From the IMG/VR virus record IMGVR_UViG_3300005613_000018, positions 35,610 through 99,609 of that record: 64,000 nt of DNA. One strand, given 5' to 3'. Position 1 is the first letter of the stretch; each line of letters begins with the position of its first letter. This DNA comes from a virus. The position numbers were made by a program, and so were the translations under genes. The notes under the pieces were generated by a model. That model was not told the origin of the DNA. It did not search any database and saw only the letters and a program-made list of their open reading frames with translations. This document shows positions 8,630 through 49,500 of this stretch, one piece after another.

Positions 8630-8665
8630 GAGGAGAACTAAATAGATCTAGGTTTAGTTCTCCTC
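8630..8665 (+). promoter_or_regulatory. 13-bp perfect hairpin over a CTAAATA late-type box, just before the 8668 start
   Basis: GAGGAGAACTAAA (8630-8642) is the exact reverse complement of TTTAGTTCTCCTC (8653-8665), with a 10-base loop. The 3' arm ends two bases before ATG 8668. CTAAATA (8638-8644) resembles a late -10 box and would start transcripts near the 3' arm. Read-through RNA would fold and could hide the start; a late transcript would lack the 5' arm. Confidence 0.6.
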
Positions 8666-15127: not shown

Positions 15128-15167
15128 GTTAGTTACCTCGAAAGTTCCCTTATAGTGTAGGAACCAC
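15128..15167 (+). promoter_or_regulatory. 37-bp promoter-like repeat, copy 7
   Basis: GTTAGTTACCTC, GAAAGTTC, TATAGTGTAGGAACCAC; this copy has a three-base insertion before ACCAC. ATG 15181 follows. Confidence 0.75.
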
Positions 15168-17798: not shown

Positions 17799-17867
17799 TT
17801 TATCTCTTTTAATGTAACTCAAACTATCTAAATAACATTGCTTGTGTGTAGTTACCGAGCAGACTTG

Positions 17868-17887
17868 GGAGGCTTTGGGCCTCCTTT
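17868..17887 (+). terminator. Short terminator hairpin before the homing endonuclease
   Basis: GGAGGC (17868-17873) and GCCTCC (17879-17884) pair perfectly around a five-base loop and are followed by TTT. It would reduce read-through from the small-gene array into the endonuclease gene. Confidence 0.65.
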
Positions 17888-17891
17888 GTCG

Positions 17892-17899
17892 TATAAATA
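17892..17899 (+). promoter_or_regulatory. Late promoter (TATAAATA) of the GIY-YIG gene
   Basis: Perfect T4-type late -10 box. Initiation about six bases downstream falls at the start of the 3' arm of the inverted repeat, 20 bases from ATG 17920. Confidence 0.8.
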
Positions 17900-17919
17900 A
17901 GTATAACTACACACACGGC

Positions 17920-18537
17920 ATGAATAACTTTTACACTTACGCTTTTTTGCGTGAGGATGGTTCTCCTTACTACATTGGCAAAGGTAGTGGATGTAGAGCT
18001 ACAAAAAAGAGATATGTGGGTGCAAAACGACCCAAAGATAAGAGCAGGATTATTATACTCAAAAACAACTTATCAGAGGAAGACGCATTTAAGCATGAAA
18101 TTTATATGATCAACATATATGGTCGTAAGAACAATCATACGGGCATTCTTCATAACTTCACAGACGGAGGTGAGGGATGTAGTGGTATGAAACACACCGA
18201 AGAGTTCAAGAGAATTAGAAGTGAAAAATATACAGGAAAAAAGAGACAACCTCACACAGAGGAGACTAAACAAAAGTTGAGGATTTCTCGCTCCAATCAA
18301 ACTGACCCCCGATTAGGTACAACACACACAGAGGAGACAAAGAAGAGACTGAGTGAACTTAAATGCAAATATGTGTATGAGTTGACATCACCTAAAGGGC
18401 GGAAATATGTTGCCAATAGTTCTAATTTATTCTGTAAAGAATACCCTGACTTAGAGTTAAATCCCGTTTGTATTCGTCGTGCCTCAACATCATCAAACAT
18501 GTATAAGGGTTGGTATATCATAAGACGAGAGAGATAG
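17920..18537 (+). CDS. GIY-YIG homing endonuclease with NUMOD3 motifs
   Basis: 205 residues from ATG 17920; an upstream in-frame ATG at 17842 is rejected because it lies before the late promoter and would encode the hairpin. The N-terminus FYTYAFLREDGSPYYIGKGSG is the GIY-YIG nuclease core (the YTY and YYIGKG elements). Two NUMOD3-type repeats follow (GMKHTEEFKRIRSEK; GTTHTEETKKRLSELK), then a C-terminal DNA-binding part ending NMYKGWYIIRR. It is probably a free-standing, Seg-like mobile endonuclease that cuts related phage genomes lacking it. Expression should be late (own TATAAATA) and blocked early by the 12-bp hairpin. Its stop abuts repeat copy 14. Confidence 0.88.
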   Translation: MNNFYTYAFLREDGSPYYIGKGSGCRATKKRYVGAKRPKDKSRIIILKNNLSEEDAFKHEIYMINIYGRKNNHTGILHNFTDGGEGCSGMKHTEEFKRIRSEKYTGKKRQPHTEETKQKLRISRSNQTDPRLGTTHTEETKKRLSELKCKYVYELTSPKGRKYVANSSNLFCKEYPDLELNPVCIRRASTSSNMYKGWYIIRRER

Positions 18538-18853: not shown

Positions 18854-19675
18854 TTAAGGTAAAAGAGAGGAAGGTTTTCTTCCTCTTCTTCCACATTTTG
18901 TTCCTTGTAATCTTGCAGCTTTTTTGGCTGTTTCTGAATTAAATCCACATTTTGATGGTGTCCAATTTGATGGAACTTCATTTCTCCACAGATACCAACC
19001 TTTACAACTATGTTTGTTATCATCTGGTGAATTTATAGAAAGGTGGATATTACCATTTGATGTCCTTTGACCTGATATAAACTCAGCACAATCAGCCTGA
19101 GTTGGCCATTCACCACGTTCACCATTTTTATGTAATCCGTATATTTTACCTCTTCTATTCACTCTTGATTTTTTATCAACTAAGTTCTCATTTTTCCAAC
19201 TCCATCTATATCCACCAGCTTGAAATGTAGTTCCTTTAATGCACGCAGTAATTGATGATTTCATCACACCTAATTCTTTTGATGCTATTCCTCTACTATC
19301 ATAATCACGAATATGTTCTCCCTCTAATGTATAACAACTGATAGGTTTAATGTTACTATTAGAGAGGTTATAAAGGTCTCTTAATACACCACTACCACCT
19401 AATGTTGAGTTGTATCCATTGTGATAACTATCTAACTTTTCTATCCAGTATTTCTCTCTCTCACTTACAACATCTTCATTACAGGTTTCTATTACATAGA
19501 AGGTAAAATTATCAACTCCTTCCTCACATATTGCATTACAGATGTCCATATTATTATAAGGTGATGTAGCGTTGTAGATGTGTTCTTTCCACCTAATATG
19601 AGGGTCTTTCTTTCTCGTTAGACCGACATATTTCCTATTGGTTTCTTTATGCTGAATGACATAGATTGAAGCCAT
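18854..19675 (-). CDS. GIY-YIG homing endonuclease (minus strand)
   Basis: 273 residues and the only convincing minus-strand gene in the window. The N-terminus ASIYVIQHKETNRKYVGLT is a GIY-YIG core (IYVI then KYVGLT), with the conserved REKYWIEKLDSYHNGYN helix and turn. Two NUMOD1/IENR-like DNA-binding repeats follow, around CYTLEGEHIRDYDSRGIASKEL (about residues 118-165) and YGLHKNGERGEWPTQADCAEF. Likely a free-standing mobile endonuclease. It has a TATAAATA late promoter on the minus strand at 19697-19704, enclosed by an inverted repeat. The 3' ends of this gene and the plus-strand gene nearly touch. Confidence 0.88.
   Translation of the reverse strand: MASIYVIQHKETNRKYVGLTRKKDPHIRWKEHIYNATSPYNNMDICNAICEEGVDNFTFYVIETCNEDVVSEREKYWIEKLDSYHNGYNSTLGGSGVLRDLYNLSNSNIKPISCYTLEGEHIRDYDSRGIASKELGVMKSSITACIKGTTFQAGGYRWSWKNENLVDKKSRVNRRGKIYGLHKNGERGEWPTQADCAEFISGQRTSNGNIHLSINSPDDNKHSCKGWYLWRNEVPSNWTPSKCGFNSETAKKAARLQGTKCGRRGRKPSSLLP
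18866..18886. terminator. Hairpin between convergent genes (possible bidirectional terminator)
   Basis: AGAGGAAG (18866-18873) and CTTCCTCT (18879-18886) pair perfectly. It lies inside the last codons of the minus-strand endonuclease, 14 bases past the plus-strand stop. There is no good T run on the plus strand. Confidence 0.4.
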
Positions 19676-19682
19676 TGGATAA

Positions 19683-19740
19683 TACTCAATTAGATTTATT
19701 TATATAGGGTAAGTGTTAAAAATAGACCCCTAATTGATTA
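19683..19740 (-). promoter_or_regulatory. Inverted repeat enclosing the late promoter of the minus-strand endonuclease
   Basis: On the minus strand TAATCAATTAG (19740-19730) can pair with CTAATTGAGTA (19693-19683), 10 of 11 positions. TATAAATA lies between the arms. The 3' arm is 7 bases before the ATG, and late transcripts would begin at about that arm and lack the 5' arm. This is the same design as at 17843, with an unrelated sequence. Confidence 0.65.
19697..19704 (-). promoter_or_regulatory. Late promoter (TATAAATA) of the minus-strand GIY-YIG gene
   Basis: The plus strand reads TATTTATA at 19697-19704, i.e. TATAAATA on the minus strand, 21 bases upstream of the start codon at 19675. Confidence 0.75.
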
Positions 19741-20253
19741 AAGAAAGGTAAAGTTCTATTTTATACATTGTGGAAAAACCTGTGGAAAACTATGTTAATG
19801 AAGGAGTTAATCTTCTCTTTTATCTTATAAACCTCTGAGTTAATGTTCTCTTTTATCTTATAAACCTTCGAGTTAATGTTCTGGAAACTCTTATAAACCT
19901 TCGAGGCCTTGTGATCTAAGATGTTCTAACATAAGGAGAACGATTTGTCAACCCCCAGACTCTGAAATCCTCACAATCCCCCCTCTCAAAGTGTCATAAA
20001 GACACACAGATTTCTTATGATTCTAAGCACTAAAAAAACCAATTAAGGGTGAGTTTTTTATAACTCCTTGGCAACCCTTTGATATTCAGTTGTCTGCTAT
20101 TTGTCGATCCTTGAGTGTTAACCAGTTTATGTGGAGTTTGTGTCTGACCATTGACCCCGTAGGATGGTTCAGTGTTATAAACTCAACGACCAGTTATTGA
20201 ACACAGTGGAACAAATAACTCAACTATTTATAACAAACTCATTTTGAATTAAA
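19741..20253. other. Gene-free stretch with tandem repeats
   Basis: No credible ORF with a start and supporting context is seen in about 510 bp beyond the endonuclease control region. It contains the 33-bp tandem repeats (19804-19902), several TTATAAAC motifs, a C-rich tract near 19950-19985 and short hairpins. It separates the minus-strand endonuclease from the last promoter-repeat cassette. It could be a replication or recombination site; nothing seen proves this. Confidence 0.5.
19804..19902 (+). repeat. Three tandem 33-bp repeats
   Basis: Units start at 19804, 19837 and 19870 with the sequence GAGTTAATSTTCT at the front and CTTATAAACCTYC at the end. Units 1 and 2 differ at three or so positions; unit 3 is changed in the middle. 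The period is exactly 33 bp. No spacers, so not CRISPR. Confidence 0.85.
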
Positions 20254-25170: not shown

Positions 25171-27261
25171 ATGCCTTTAGTTAATTTTAGCAATCTAGAC
25201 TTTGATCAGATTAGAGACTCTATCAAGAGTTATCTTCGATCAAATTCCAATTTTACAGATTATGACTTTGAGGGATCTAATCTTTCAACGATTATCGATA
25301 CTCTTGCATATAATACTTACATAACCTCATACAACGCCAACATGGTGACGAATGAGGTGTTTATTGATAGTGCGACTTTAAGGGAAAATGTAGTTTCCCT
25401 AGCTCGTAATATAGGATATCTTCCAAGATCAAGAAAATCAGCTGTAGCAAATATATCTTTTAGTGTTGATGCATCAAATACAACAGCTGTCACCGTCACA
25501 TTAAAAGCTGGAACGGCATTTATTTCAAGTCGTGCTTTTGGTAATGAAAGTTATATATTCTCAATTCCTGATGATATTACAGTTCCTGTAGACTCCACTG
25601 GAACTGCCAACTTCACCAACATTGATATTTACGAAGGAACATATATTAAAAACACTTACACTGTAAATTCAAGAACTCCAAATCAAAAATTCATTATACC
25701 AAATAGTGGATGTGATACTTCTCTGATTAGAGTTATTGTAAAAACTTCTCAAAGTGCTATAGATGTTGGAACTTCGGAAAAGTTTTTACAATATGATAAT
25801 CTTTATGAAATTGGGCCAAATTCACCGATTTACTTTTTAGAAGAAATTGATAGTGAAAGATATGAGTTGTTATTTGGTGATGGTATATTTGGAAAGAAAC
25901 TAGAAGAACCAAATTTTGTTGAAGTCAGTTATATCGTTTCTAATGGTGAGAATGCAAACAATATATCCAATTTCACATTTTCAGGAACACTTAGAGATAA
26001 TAGTGGAAACTCTATTACATCGGGAGTTTCATTAATTGCTACAAATTATCAGTCATTTGGTGGCAAGTCTATTGAAAGTGTCGAATCGATTAAAAAATAC
26101 GCTCCTAGAATTTACGCTTCTCAAAATAGAGCAGTTACTTCTTCCGACTATGAAGCATTGATTCCTAAAATTTATCCAGAATCTGAATCCGTATCTGCCT
26201 TTGGTGGGGAAGAACTCACACCACCTTCATATGGGAAAGTCTTTATCAGTATTAAACCATATAATGGTGTATATCTATCTTCAACCATAAAAAGTAATAT
26301 ACTCTCAGAACTCAGAAAATATACTGTAGCTGGAATTATCCCAGAAATTATTGATCTGAAATACCTTTACATAGAATCAAATTCTAATGTTTATTATAAT
26401 ACAAATCTCGCACCATCTTCATCATATGTAAAAGACACTATTGTCCAAAACATCACAAATTACTCCAACTCGTCGGATCTTAATAAGTTTGGAGCTAGAT
26501 TTAAGTACAGTAAATATCTCAACATCATTGATAATAGTAATGAATCAATTACATCTAATATTACAACTGTCAACATAAGAAGAGATATGGCAGCTTTTTT
26601 AAATCAGTTTGCTGAATATGAGATTTGTTTTGGTAATAGATTTCATATCAAAAATCATGGACATTCCTCTACTTACGATGGTAATGTTATTGGATATAAT
26701 ATCAAATCATCTGGATTTACCGTGAGTGGAATTTCTGGAACAGTTTATCTTGGTGATGTTCCAAACAGTGATTTGGAAACTGGAACTATTTTCTTATTTA
26801 AATTGAATTCACCTACAGAACCAGTAGTTATAAAAAAAGGTATTGGTACAATTGATTATATTAAAGGGGAAATTAAACTTAACCCTATAAAAATACTATC
26901 GACAAAAGTTAACAAAGATATTCCACTAGTTGAGATATCTGCAACTCCATATTCAAATGATGTTATTGGTTTACAAGATTTATATCTACAACTCGATCTA
27001 AGTTCTGTTTCGGTTACTATGGTTCCAGATCAAATTGCATCTGGAGATGATATTTCGGGTACAAATTATAAAGTAAGTTCTAGTTATTCTAATGGTAGTT
27101 TAGTTCGTGGAACACCAGTATTCACTTCTCCGACATCTACCTCTTCAACGACCTCTTTAACGTCCACTTCTTCAGTATATACTACTACCAGTACTTCAAC
27201 TTCTCCTTCTACAAGTATGGTAAATAGTAGTAATAATGGTTCAACAACCTCCACTTATTAA
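25171..27261 (+). CDS. 6: Baseplate wedge subunit gp6
   Basis: 696 residues (T4 gp6 is 660). The N-terminus LVNFSNLDFDQIRDSIKSYLRSNSNFTDYDFEGSNLSTIIDTLAYNT is the classical gp6/baseplate-J-like start, and YAPRIYASQNRAVTSSDYEALI in the middle is the conserved J-like core. gp6 forms the iris ring that drives baseplate expansion. The last 50 or so residues are almost only Ser and Thr (STSSTTSLTSTSSV, TTSTSTSPSTS), a low-complexity tail absent from T4 gp6. Immediately follows gp25 and precedes gp7 by 12 bp, as in other T4-like phages. Confidence 0.93.
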   Translation: MPLVNFSNLDFDQIRDSIKSYLRSNSNFTDYDFEGSNLSTIIDTLAYNTYITSYNANMVTNEVFIDSATLRENVVSLARNIGYLPRSRKSAVANISFSVDASNTTAVTVTLKAGTAFISSRAFGNESYIFSIPDDITVPVDSTGTANFTNIDIYEGTYIKNTYTVNSRTPNQKFIIPNSGCDTSLIRVIVKTSQSAIDVGTSEKFLQYDNLYEIGPNSPIYFLEEIDSERYELLFGDGIFGKKLEEPNFVEVSYIVSNGENANNISNFTFSGTLRDNSGNSITSGVSLIATNYQSFGGKSIESVESIKKYAPRIYASQNRAVTSSDYEALIPKIYPESESVSAFGGEELTPPSYGKVFISIKPYNGVYLSSTIKSNILSELRKYTVAGIIPEIIDLKYLYIESNSNVYYNTNLAPSSSYVKDTIVQNITNYSNSSDLNKFGARFKYSKYLNIIDNSNESITSNITTVNIRRDMAAFLNQFAEYEICFGNRFHIKNHGHSSTYDGNVIGYNIKSSGFTVSGISGTVYLGDVPNSDLETGTIFLFKLNSPTEPVVIKKGIGTIDYIKGEIKLNPIKILSTKVNKDIPLVEISATPYSNDVIGLQDLYLQLDLSSVSVTMVPDQIASGDDISGTNYKVSSSYSNGSLVRGTPVFTSPTSTSSTTSLTSTSSVYTTTSTSTSPSTSMVNSSNNGSTTSTY

Positions 27262-43587: not shown

Positions 43588-46500
43588 ATGCCACAGGAAA
43601 CTAATCTCAACGTCGCCCCTTATTTTGACGATTTTGACTCACAAAAAGACTATTATAAGGTTCTGTTTAAACCAGGTTTTCCGGTTCAAGCTAGAGAATT
43701 AACGACACTTCAATCGATTCTTCAAAATCAAGTAGAAAGTGTTGGAGATCACCTTTTCAAAGAAGGTGCTATGGTAATTCCTGGTGGACTTTCTTACCAG
43801 AAAAATTTTTATGCCATTCAAATTGATTCAGACTATCTTGGAATTCCGGTTACATTATATCTAGATCAATTGATTGGTAAAACGATTACTGGTGCAACTT
43901 CAGGTATAACAGCAAGAGTAGTAAAATATATCACCAGTTCTCAATCCGAGAGAGGAAACTGTACATTATACATTGATTATATCGATAGTAGCTCTACAGA
44001 TTTATCTTCCTCAACATTTTTAGATAATGAAGTTCTTTTAACTAACGAAAGTATTAATTACGCTACGACTTTCATTTCTGCTGGTGAAGGTTTTGCTAAA
44101 GCTATTTCACAAGATGCTTCAGCTATTGGATCATCAATGAGTATTAGTGATGGTGTCTACTTCCTGAGAGGATATTTTGTAAATGTTTCTAGTCAAACTT
44201 TAATTTTAGATCAGTATAGTAATAATTCAAGTTATAGAATTGGTTTCAATGTAGTCGAACAAATTATTTCTTCCGATGTTGATGAATCTTTAAATGATAA
44301 TGCAAAAGGATTTAATAATTATACGGCTCCAGGTGCAGATAGATTAAAGATTACTGCAACACTTTCAAAAAAATCATCTGATGATTATAATGATCAAAAT
44401 TTTATCCAATTAGCAGAAGTAAAAAATGGAGTTCTAAGAGATATAGTAACTAATACAGAGTATAATATTATTTCTGAAGAATTTGCTAGAAGAACTTTTG
44501 AGGAATCTGGAAATTATTATGTAAAGGAGTTTGTAACTAAAGTTGTTAATAGTTTAAATAATGGTTTTGGTAATAGAGGTTTATTTAATGAAAATCAATT
44601 AACTCCTTCAGGAAATGTTCCCTCAGATGATATTGGTATCTATAAAATTTCACCTGGAAAAGCTTATGTGAGAGGGTTTGAAGTTGAGACGATATCTCCC
44701 ACTTTAATTGATTTTGAAAAACCAAGAACAACTAAAACTTTAGAAGATCAAGGAATAAATTTTGGTTTTGGGCCATCTTTTGTCGTTAATAGTGTGAATG
44801 GTTGTCCATCAGTAGGAATCAATACATCTTATACTATCAGTATGAGAGATGAGAGAGTCGGAACTGATTATACAGTCACTGCTGGTAAAGAAATTGGTAT
44901 CGCTAGACTTTATGATTTTAATTTAAAATCTGGTTCATATGATTCCACTTATCCAGAATTAAATAAGTGGAATATTTCTTTGTGGGATATTAGTAAGTAT
45001 TCGGATATTACTGTAAACGAATCAGTTTCACTTACAATACCAACATATATTGAGGGTAGAACTAGTGGAGCTACTGGATATTTAAGACATGCTATTGTTG
45101 GAACAGCAATCACAGCATATGATGTTGAGGGAGAATTTATTGAAGGGGAAAGACTCTTATTTAACGGTGTAGAAGATAATTCTAGATCAACTAGAGAAGT
45201 TACTAATTATAAAATATCCGATTTCCAATCAATGCATGGCATTGTTGGATCAGGTCAAACGTTTAGTGCTAATTTCATTCCTTCCACAAGATTGGTATTT
45301 GGAAATGCATCAATTACAGCCGCTAGTAATGGAATTTCTACAGTAACAGCACCAAATGCAGATTTTCTTGGAATCGTAAAAACTGGTAATCTTTTAGGAT
45401 ATCAAAGAGCTTCTTTAGATTATCAATCTTTTGCTAAAGTAGAAAGTGTATCACAAACACAAATCACAATTTCTGGAATAACTACGGTCTCTGGTTTTGT
45501 AGATGGTGCACTACCATCCACTACAATTGAAGTTAATGATCTTTCATTGTTAGGAACCACTTTCCAACAAAAATCTCCAAGTGGAAATACCTCCCCCAAT
45601 AACTCCATTTATAGTTCATTCTCTAAAGAAAATATTTCTAATGTATCTCTGAATGATGCTACGTTAATCATAAGAAGACCTTATGATGTAACTATAACGG
45701 ATGGTTCTACGGCAACTATAACTGCAGGTGAAAATGAAGTTTTCCTTCCATATACTCAGAAAAGATATACATTAATTCTTGATGATGGTACTACAGAAAT
45801 ATTATCAGCATCTAAATTAACATTTGGTTCCGGAAGTACAAATCTCACCGTTAATGGATTATCAGGAAGTGGTTCTGCCCAATTAGTCACTACTATCAGA
45901 AAAGATAAAATATTTGAAAAGGTAAAAGTAAATAACACATCATTATCCACTATTATAAACAAGTCTTCTCAATCAAATTCTGGTGTTGGTGCAACAACAC
46001 TAAATGATGGTCTTACTTATGGTAACTATCCTTTTGGTACTAGGGTTCAGGACTCAAAAATTTCTTTAAATGTTCCCGATGTTGTTAGAGTTTTTGGAGT
46101 ATTTGAATCAAAAACAACTAGTGATCCAGAATCACCAAACATGACAACTTCTTTGATGAGTGGTTCTACATCTACAACCAATGATCTTATAATCTCTGAA
46201 CAAATTGTTGGAAGTACTAGTGGAGCTTTGGCCAAGTATATTTTTAGAAAAAGTGATACTTCTATTAATTTCATATATGAAAATCAAAATACTTTCCAAA
46301 ATGGTGAAGTTGTAACATTTACTTCTTCAGGAGTGACTGCAGTAGTATCTGATTTGAGTATCGGAAGTAAAAATATAACTTCTAGATTCTCTCTGGATCA
46401 GGCTCAAGAAGAAACATTTTATGATTATTCTAGAATTGTTAGGAATGAAGATGTAATATCACCGTCTAAAAAAATTATTGTATACTATCAATCAGCTTCA

Positions 46501-49500
46501 TATGATTCTTCAGATACTGGTGATATTACAACTGTAAATTCATACGATAATTTTGATTACTCAACAGAAATTGGATCAACTAAATCTGGAATTAGATGTT
46601 CGGATATTATTGATGCTAGACTTCGTACATCCGGATTTACTGTATCTGAAAATACTAGATCTCCATTTGAATTTTTTGGAAGATCATTTACTAGTGGTCA
46701 ACACAGTTCTAAAGATATTTTAGCTTCAGATGAATCAATCACAGTAGATTATTCTTATTATCTTCCAAGATATGATAGTATTTTAATCACTAAAAAGGGT
46801 GAGTTTGTAGTCAAACAAGGAATTCCATCAGATATTCCTACTCTTCCTACAATTAGTAGTGGGACAATGGAAATCGCTAATGTATTTCTTCCAGCATATC
46901 TTTACAGTGTTTCAGATGCTCAAGTCTCATTTATCAACCATAAGAGATATCAAATGCAGGATATCTCAAGACTGGAAAGTAGAATTAACAATCTCGAATA
47001 TTATACTTCTCTCAATATTCTAGAACAAAAAACAATCAATCAATTTACTCCTGATGAAAATGGATTAAATCGTTTTAAATCAGGTATAGCTGTTGATAAT
47101 TTCAATACTAGAGATATTCAGGATAATGCAGTTGGTGTTAAAAACGCTATTGATAAATCTAAACATGTATTGAGACCTTCACACTATACTACTGCAATTA
47201 ACTTGAATCTTGCTACGGAAGGAAGTTCGAATGACGATACTAGATTTTCTACAATTATAGGTGATGGCATTAGAAGAACTAATCAGGCAATTTCTCTTGA
47301 TTATTCAGAAGTTTCTTGGTTAAATCAACCATTTGCAACAAGAACTGAATCTGTCACTCCATTTTTAGTTACTTTTTATCAAGGACAATTATCTTTTGAA
47401 CCTACAGTTGACGTTTGGATTGATACTATAACTATTGAGCCAAGAAATATTCAAGGGGGAGTTACTACTACAGACTTATTACCAGTTAATGTCGAAATAA
47501 ACCGCCGGGGTAATAATGAAGATGCTCCAAGAGTTGGTCCACTTCCAGCAGTAATAAATGATGACAGAGAAGCTGCGTGGGGTCGGGGTCGTGAACGTAA
47601 ACCTGAAGAAGGCCGTGGTGGTGGGCCACAACGAGTTGGGAGAAGTACAAGAGAAAGAAGTGAGGCGAATGGAGGTACTTGGAGACAAGGAACTGCAGAA
47701 GAATTTCGGATGTTTGCTGGTGATGCGTCCGCCGATCGCTGGGCCACGATGAATGCTCGGGGTGTTCCAGGATCTTTTATGGTAGAAGTTGGTGGCAATA
47801 ATCAAGTCATAGTAGAACCAGCAACACCCGATCGTACAGTTCAAGTTGGTTTCGAAGAAACAATTACCGAAGGTGAAGTAACAACAGAATCTCTTGGAAA
47901 TAGAATTGTTAGACGTGAAATTATTGCAAACATGAGAACTCGTAATATCGAGTTCACTGCGAAAAGGATGAAACCTTATACAAGAGTCTATTCTTTTTGG
48001 GATGAGGTTGATGTAACAAGATTCTGTGTAAACAAATTAATTGAAATCCAAATGGTTTCCGGCACATTCCAAGTTGGAGAGACCGTTCGTAGTAATACAT
48101 CTACATCGATACAAGTGGTTCCTGGAGCTGGATTTGGTCTTCCACAGATGACGTTCAGAGTAGCTTCAACAAATCATAAATCAGGGCCTTATAATAATCC
48201 AACTGACACATATGTAAATAATCCATATGATAGAAATAATAGTATTCCGGCAAGTTATTCGGAAACATCTTCAATTCTCAATATAGACACATTCAGTTTG
48301 GCTGATGAAGGATTCCCAGAATTCTCAGGTTATCTCGCAAATGGAATGACACTACAGGGTGAGACGAGTGGTGCTATTGCAACGGTATCTAATCTCAGAC
48401 TTGTAACTGATGAAGTTGGTTCCTTAATCGGTTGCTATAGAGTACCTGATTCTAGAAATACATCATTCCCGACTTTCTCTACAGGTAGAAATAAAATGAG
48501 GCTCACTAGTAGCCCAACTAATAGTAAAGTTGAGGGAACATATACAACAGCTGCTGATGAAATTTTCTACTCTCAAGGAGATCTTGACACAACTCAGGAA
48601 GTAACACTTTCCACCAGAAATATTATTAGAGAACAAACTCCGATTTTTGAAACTATTCCTGGTACTCCTGAAGTGGTCGAAGTAGGAGATCCTGGACTTA
48701 CAGGAAGATTCACTGACCCTCTGGCACAATCATTTACTGTCGATGATGAAACTGGAATTTTTGTTTCCTCTTGTGATGTATTCTTTGAGTCAGTTCCAAC
48801 AGATAATATTCCAGTAGCTTTTGATATCAGAGAGATGCAATTGGGAATTCCATCTCAAAAAATTCTAGCATATTCAAGAGTAGTAAAAAATTCTCAAGAA
48901 ATTACAACATCATCAGATGGTAGTGTTGCTACAAAGTTCACATTTGAATCCCCAGTTTATTTGGAACCCGGAAGAGAATATGCAATCGTATTGTTAGCAA
49001 ATTCTCCCGGATATAACGTTTGGATTTCTAGACTTGGTGAAATTGAAGTTTCTACTATCAATCAACCAGAATCCTCTCAAACTCTGGTATCTACTCAACC
49101 ACTTCTTGGATCATTGTTCAAGTCACAAAATGCTTCTACATGGACACCAAGTCAGTACGAAGATCTGAAGTTTGAACTTTTTAGATGTGAATTCGTTTCT
49201 AGTGGAAATGTACAGCTATTCAATCCAGATTTGAATAAAGATATTGAATTTATTGGGAGAGATTCAGTAACTACTGACCCATATACAATCAGAGTTGGTC
49301 TTGGAACAACAGTTGTAAATTCCGATTTGAGTAACTTAGTACCAGGAAATACCGTTACACAAAATCTTACACAGGCTACTGGAGACTTTGTTGGATTTGC
49401 TGGTTCTGCGACATCATCACTGACAGTTACAAATGCTGGTGTTGGTTATACACCTTCTTCTGGAAGTTTTGTATTTAATGATGTTGCACTTACAACGGTT

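Follow-up and report, generated by a model that had tools for sequence, protein, structure and literature searches.

Two parts of the arrangement described here are already known, namely, a late promoter within a hairpin and antisense control of a mobile nuclease. I-TevI, I-TevII, I-TevIII, and segB of phage T4, as well as mobE of Aeh1, have a late promoter inside an inhibitory hairpin (PMC2988022). Antisense control is represented by the transposon IS10, where repression rises with copy number (PMC5006887), and an antisense RNA is also found in the cyanophage S-PM2, whose CfrI RNA of ~225 nt spans psbA and a homing endonuclease gene (HEG) on the opposite strand (PMC2984593). In IS10, the complementarity is automatic, because RNA-OUT is made from the opposite DNA strand. 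The c4 antisense RNA of phages P1 and P7 lies on the same strand as the following gene and upstream of it, is complementary to the start region of that gene, and is processed out of a shared transcript.

The window analyzed here covers 64,000 nucleotides of a virus record of 99.6 kb, whose source is a T4-like cyanophage; a neighbouring gene matches the Pfam family “Kyanoviridae Gp96” (2e-51). Positions 17920 to 18537 (plus strand) encode a 205-aa protein with matches to NUMOD3 in Pfam (E = 3.4e-6) and to homing endonuclease families in PHROG (E = 2.1e-15). The invariant motif YTYA...PYY.GKG is the GIY-YIG catalytic motif, and the AlphaFold2 model (mean pLDDT, 80.5) finds its best PDB matches in I-HmuI (probability 1.00) and the GIY-YIG domain of UvrC (probability 0.96). 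With this catalytic motif and its DNA-binding modules, the predicted product is, by sequence and model, a free-standing GIY-YIG/NUMOD3 homing endonuclease; the sequence-only reading from which this analysis started had named it a homing endonuclease.

The region ahead of this gene comprises, in this order, promoter 1, a hairpin (P1) at the predicted +1 with the 5' arm as its loop, a terminator, promoter 2 (TATAAATA), the 3' arm, and the ATG. Promoter 1 (TCTAAATA, 17827 to 17834, plus strand) is of the late type: its core CTAAATA (17828 to 17834) is followed, after the 5-nt spacer acatt, by a purine, which is the same spacing as at promoter 2 (17892 to 17899, plus strand; 5-nt spacer, then G/A). 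In T4 late promoters, the octamer occupies about −13 to −6 and the +1 is a purine 5 nt beyond it; both +1 positions were assigned from this spacing. They fall at G17840 for promoter 1, immediately ahead of the 5' arm, and at A17905 for promoter 2, one base inside the 3' arm. The 5' arm (TGTGTGTAGTTA, 17843 to 17854) is the putative antisense segment and lies in the 5' strand and loop of P1 (17840 to 17860). Its exact 12-bp reverse complement, the 3' arm (TAACTACACACA, 17904 to 17915), would form the extreme 5' end of the late mRNA. The G+C terminator-like hairpin (GGGAGGC..GCCTCC plus TTT, ~17867 to 17887) has a short T run, and most relatives have a longer one (TTTTCTT). Positions 17840 to 17891 would constitute a small antisense RNA gene, whose RNA, folded alone, forms the P1 and terminator hairpins at −25.6 kcal/mol. 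The perfect inverted repeat, the late-promoter sequence and terminator hairpin within it, and the start codon at 17920 behind the 3' arm had all been pointed out in the sequence-only reading, and all are present.

Perfect inverted repeats of ≥12 bp with loops of ≤60 occur at four places in the window, against a mean of 0.67 start positions (maximum, 3) in first-order Markov copies of it, so that the 12-bp repeat alone is only modestly unusual; the real significance of the module comes from the recurrence of its architecture. The other three such repeats, all with short loops, lie at 8630 to 8665, overlapping ACTAAATA at 8637, and at 25734 to 25793 and 46452 to 46530. The window also encodes a second GIY-YIG homing endonuclease (273 aa, 18854 to 19675, minus strand), with TATAAATA at 19697 to 19704, flanked by a weak complementarity of 8 bp (TCAATTAG / CTAATTGA); promoter 1 was not seen at this gene, which was left out of the module counts. 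On the same strand, ~500 bp without obvious genes (19700 to 20230) contain AAGGTTTATAAGA-like repeat units and a further TATAAATA at 20225. An intergenic block with the sequence GTTAGTTACC..., in places followed by TATAGTGTAA..., is repeated between small genes at 15128, 16267, 16744, 16976, and 17403 (plus strand) and resembles an early promoter or regulatory unit that recurs; the 5' arm likewise contains AGTTACC, at 17850.

The 80 IMG/VR homologues of the window HEG yielded 66 distinct upstream regions, 67 with the window itself. The window layout (class 1) is found in 54 of these and a second layout (class 2) in 9, with neither in the remaining 4. A search pattern consisting of the two promoters and the P1 stem, with nothing specified about the arms or the downstream gene, matched at least 120 viral stretches. 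Among the matches listed are 105 modules, nearly all with a complementary 3' arm in the same register and most of them standing before a nuclease-like ORF; 96 of the 97 that are testable among these listed matches pair at ≤ −14 kcal/mol (mean, −22.2). The same pattern had 16 matches in 11.3 million bacterial and archaeal contigs (257 Gb), and of the 15 testable ones 2 pair at this threshold (mean duplex energy, −11.5 kcal/mol). Over 37 whole records, “TAAATA N52-80 TATAAATA” gave ~80 matches, nearly all of them modules, versus 5 for the reversed pattern. Seven such modules, including one of class 2, are carried by S-SRM01, a cultured freshwater phage. No Rfam 15 covariance model matched at the module, in the window or in its relatives. 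By sequence, the module appears to be a widespread gene pair, undescribed before within Rfam and the open-access literature searched; the new part would be the tandem same-strand pair with two late promoters as a mobile cassette common to unrelated nucleases, which was not found in either.

Sites of the form N[A/C]TAAATA are believable late promoters here: the late promoter reported for S-PM2 is NATAAATA (PMC2984593), and such sites precede structural genes of the window, namely, those for a baseplate wedge protein, a head-tail adaptor, and tail fibres; one of these genes has a tandem AATAAATA/TCTAAATA. With promoter 1 taken as N[A/C]TAAATA plus 5 nt, the small-RNA +1 is G or A in 172 of 176 distinct modules; promoter 2 is TATAAATA in 170 of the 176, and the mRNA +1 is a purine in 171. 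On the small-RNA side, the arm helix in these modules usually starts between +3 and +8, and on the mRNA side at −1/+1 (the latter in 144/176). Among the 53 assessable class 1 upstream regions of the homologues, 52 have promoter 1. That it is merely the stop codon of the upstream gene was ruled out for the window, where it lies ~30 nt beyond that stop; in S-SRM01, its G and A are supplied by the upstream TGA.

The framework of class 2 is GGGCAGCAAC-loop-GTTGCGTAAGTCCC; its internal loop contains a UAAG that never varies, and the loop it presents is complementary to the leader between TATAAATA and the ATG. The 36 distinct class 2 loci (e.g., L098, L099, and L306, the last at 77576 to 77618 of S-SRM01) were found without use of loop or leader. 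They usually start 4 to 17 nt past the stop of the upstream gene, which often encodes a conserved ~400-aa protein. These loci show no consistent promoter of their own, and the framework had no Rfam match in the loci scanned. Class 2 supports the importance of pairing and fits either cis action or an RNA derived from the 3' end of the upstream gene.

The pairing itself has been maintained by evolution. The arms covary over 139 distinct pairs, in which the sequence is free and the complementarity is kept. Covariation was counted in fixed-register classes, because arm lengths vary and whole-module MAFFT alignment misplaced the arms. In the largest such class (68 distinct arm pairs), 93.7% of positions are paired, compared with 57.9% (maximum, 63.5%) in leader swaps; double changes number 269 versus 79 (maximum, 107), and the middle positions use all four Watson-Crick pairs. 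In a set of 59 modules (that of the window and 58 from 19 genomes), the cognate RNA/leader duplex has −21.3 ± 2.3 kcal/mol versus −11.1 for non-cognate combinations, the register being picked per module with equal freedom for the non-cognate controls. The complementarity is specific, by sequence, to the start region of the presumed target. The P1 stem, with C-G to T-A exchanges on both sides, is present in 154 of 169 small RNAs (91%), versus 63% in the swap control and 35% in shuffles. In the 59 modules, the small RNAs fold as P1 and terminator hairpins, P1 starting at +1 or +2.

Longer transcripts are predicted to fold differently. The read-through RNA of the window (17835 to 17950) folds at −36.2 kcal/mol versus −23.4 ± 3.5 for shuffles (z = −3.7), in an extended stem in which GC at 17840 and 17841 and CAU at 17836 to 17838 are also paired at or around the AUG. 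In all 59 modules, when the RNA contains the 5' arm, ≥8 nucleotides of the leader are paired with this arm in the minimum-energy fold, and an RNA that begins at promoter 2 has almost no predicted structure (mean, −3.9 kcal/mol).

The genes behind the module include several GIY-YIG types, HNH-like nucleases, and TnpB. In S-SRM01, the module precedes QPX48031, an HNH/endonuclease VII-like protein annotated as HNH. A complete TnpB (OrfB_IS605 plus Cas12f1-like TNB domains) follows the module twice in one 243-kb record (G010) from a large phage, each copy (L324 and L326) behind a class 1 module. The HEGs QPX48079 of S-SRM01, QGT54673 of B23, and XYM58128 of Sf-CH5 are annotated as “translation initiation factor 2,” which is likely a misannotation. 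Identical arms accompany different proteins, and one nuclease type is found with many different arms.

Occupied and empty sites in relatives show what moves. One S-SRM01 cassette separates gp32 from the DUF1825 gene. P-SSM2 and S-SKS1 lack this cassette, and there the DUF1825 stop lies within the −35 box of gp32, TTGACA. The S-SRM01 insert begins directly after the DUF1825 TGA with TAAATAATTGT-ACCTG..., and the HEG end, ...CTTGA, rebuilds the interrupted −35 box (L348, 1454 to 2220). In S-B68, a cassette between the DNA polymerase gene and uvsX follows the polymerase TGA without a gap, and its last bases are the TGA of the HEG; S-H34 provides the empty site. In both comparisons, the insert has promoter 1 at its left end, so that the promoter, the small RNA, and the nuclease would constitute a single unit. 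At the edge of promoter 1, the letter(s) can be supplied by the recipient; this may be why the first bases of this promoter are variable, unlike the fixed promoter 2. The empty site of the window's own insertion was not found, as its flanking genes had no usable relatives in the phage collection.

The best explanation of this anatomy, with its recurrence, covariation, promoter spacing, association with different nucleases, and co-mobility, is in our view a trans-acting antisense RNA against the late nuclease mRNA with a cis-acting backup, to which we assign a probability of about 0.6. The module would be a mobile two-gene cassette of a small antisense RNA and a selfish nuclease. Promoter 1 (17827) would give a ~50-nt RNA that starts at 17840 and ends at the terminator; the hairpin formed by this RNA would hold the 5' arm in the loop and the 5' strand. 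Promoter 2 (17892) would give the nuclease mRNA, which, because it would start at 17905, would begin with the complement of that loop, ~15 nt ahead of the AUG. The small RNA would pair with the first ~12 to 15 nt of this mRNA, through the loop first and then by strand invasion of the P1 stem, and deny ribosomes access to the start, limiting nuclease output. Its dose would rise with the copy number of the phage genome and so hold the output down. In transcripts that come from upstream or pass the terminator, the same arms would fold in cis, so that early read-through RNA would stay untranslated, which is the I-TevI logic. We infer from these signals that both RNAs exist, that they pair in trans, and that the pairing represses translation.

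A purely cis-acting device of the I-TevI type, as envisaged in the sequence-only reading, is a possible but unlikely alternative. Here, the arms would hide the start codon in read-through (early) RNA, the promoter between them would make the translatable mRNA, and promoter 1 and the terminator would be accessories providing upstream insulation. Every module fits such inhibition, since all 59 read-through folds sequester the leader and the late leaders are open; the upstream segment pairs with the HEG start region, and RNA from promoter 2, with its +1 assigned to 17905, would lack the 5' arm. There are precedents in I-TevI, segB, mobE, and gene e (PMC2988022, PMC3014915), and class 2 has the arms and TATAAATA with no consistent promoter 1. 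The lack of a clear promoter in class 2, the absence of arm diversification within genomes, and the short T run in the window count against action in trans. The arms show no orthogonality within genomes: cross-pairs at ≤ −14 kcal/mol make up 16.5% within versus 17.6% between genomes, and one genome carries two modules with interchangeable pairing. There is thus no sign of selection against cross-talk in trans; having found no difference, we consider this comparison uninformative on trans versus cis. However, promoter 1, with its exact spacing, is conserved and would place the 5' arm in a late RNA, cis inhibition is largely redundant if a terminator stands between the arms, and the local P1 hairpin at the +1 competes with the long-range pairing and yet is conserved and covarying. 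A cis-only device needs neither promoter 1 nor P1 nor the terminator, and the conservation of all three argues for a discrete RNA product, for which the sequence signals (its own promoter and terminator) are present. The I-TevI reading is therefore partly right and incomplete: the predicted cis folding and the open late leaders bear it out, and it missed promoter 1 and the hairpin that makes the 5' arm part of an RNA predicted to begin exactly at this promoter. It had also expected no late 5' end upstream of 17854, and promoter 1 predicts one at ~17840. Nor is the module peculiar to I-TevI-like enzymes, since HNH-like nucleases and TnpB also use it.

Control at the level of transcription, in which P1 and arm pairing would switch the promoter 1 RNA between termination and antitermination and read-through would set nuclease expression, is very improbable. 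P1, terminator, and arms are adjacent, and the 5' strand of P1 can pair with either its 3' strand or the 3' arm, but the 3' arm lies downstream of the terminator and would be made too late to stop termination, the alternative helices share no part of the terminator hairpin, and promoter 2 bypasses the terminator. Finally, I-TevI does bind an operator that overlaps its own late promoter (PMC2988022), but arms serving here as an inverted-repeat operator or nuclease recognition site were rejected as the least probable case, because arm sequences vary freely and independently of the protein, with pairing kept, and the same arms accompany unrelated nucleases, so that the conserved feature, as the sequences have it, is the pairing and not a protein-binding site.

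The trans-acting reading can be extended to a new family of phage antisense RNAs associated with selfish nucleases, a proposal for which we see roughly even odds. This would be a plug-in brake common to GIY-YIG, HNH-like, and TnpB nucleases in T4-like cyanophages, acting in trans and by gene dose, with its own lock and key in each cassette, and restraining the nuclease as genomes multiply. Metagenomic cassettes with the module number well over one hundred, and cultured phages carry it too, with seven copies in S-SRM01. If the proposal is correct, T4-like phages have a trans-acting antisense RNA that can be tested functionally against a defined target, two known restraints on selfish DNA (the I-TevI hairpin and IS10-type antisense RNA) are joined, and a single RNA module is exchangeable among unrelated nucleases, TnpB included. 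The many diverged loop/leader pairs are also material for RNA design.

Among the known systems, c4 of P1 and P7 differs from the module, whose RNA has its own predicted promoter and terminator and a homing nuclease as its target. The CfrI RNA of S-PM2 is likewise an antisense RNA beside an HEG in a T4-like cyanophage (PMC2984593), whereas the predicted module RNA is ~50 nt long, comes from the same strand upstream of its target, which sets it apart from cis-encoded (opposite-strand) antisense RNAs, and pairs only with the 5' end of the mRNA. RNA-OUT and RNA-IN of IS10/Tn10 offer a parallel in that a short RNA of a mobile element is complementary to the translation start of the nuclease mRNA (PMC5006887); in the module, unlike IS10, the two RNAs are in tandem on the same strand, and two separate arms are kept complementary by covariation. 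In the T4 HEGs, Aeh1 mobE, gene e, and soc, as in the module, complementary arms flank a late promoter ahead of the start codon, and the late mRNA is free and the read-through RNA folded (PMC2988022, PMC3014915), in the module by prediction. Unlike the T4 HEGs, the module has a second late-type promoter reading into the 5' arm, a hairpin anchored at the predicted start, a terminator, and arms that begin near both predicted +1 sites, and it serves several nuclease families as one interchangeable cassette.
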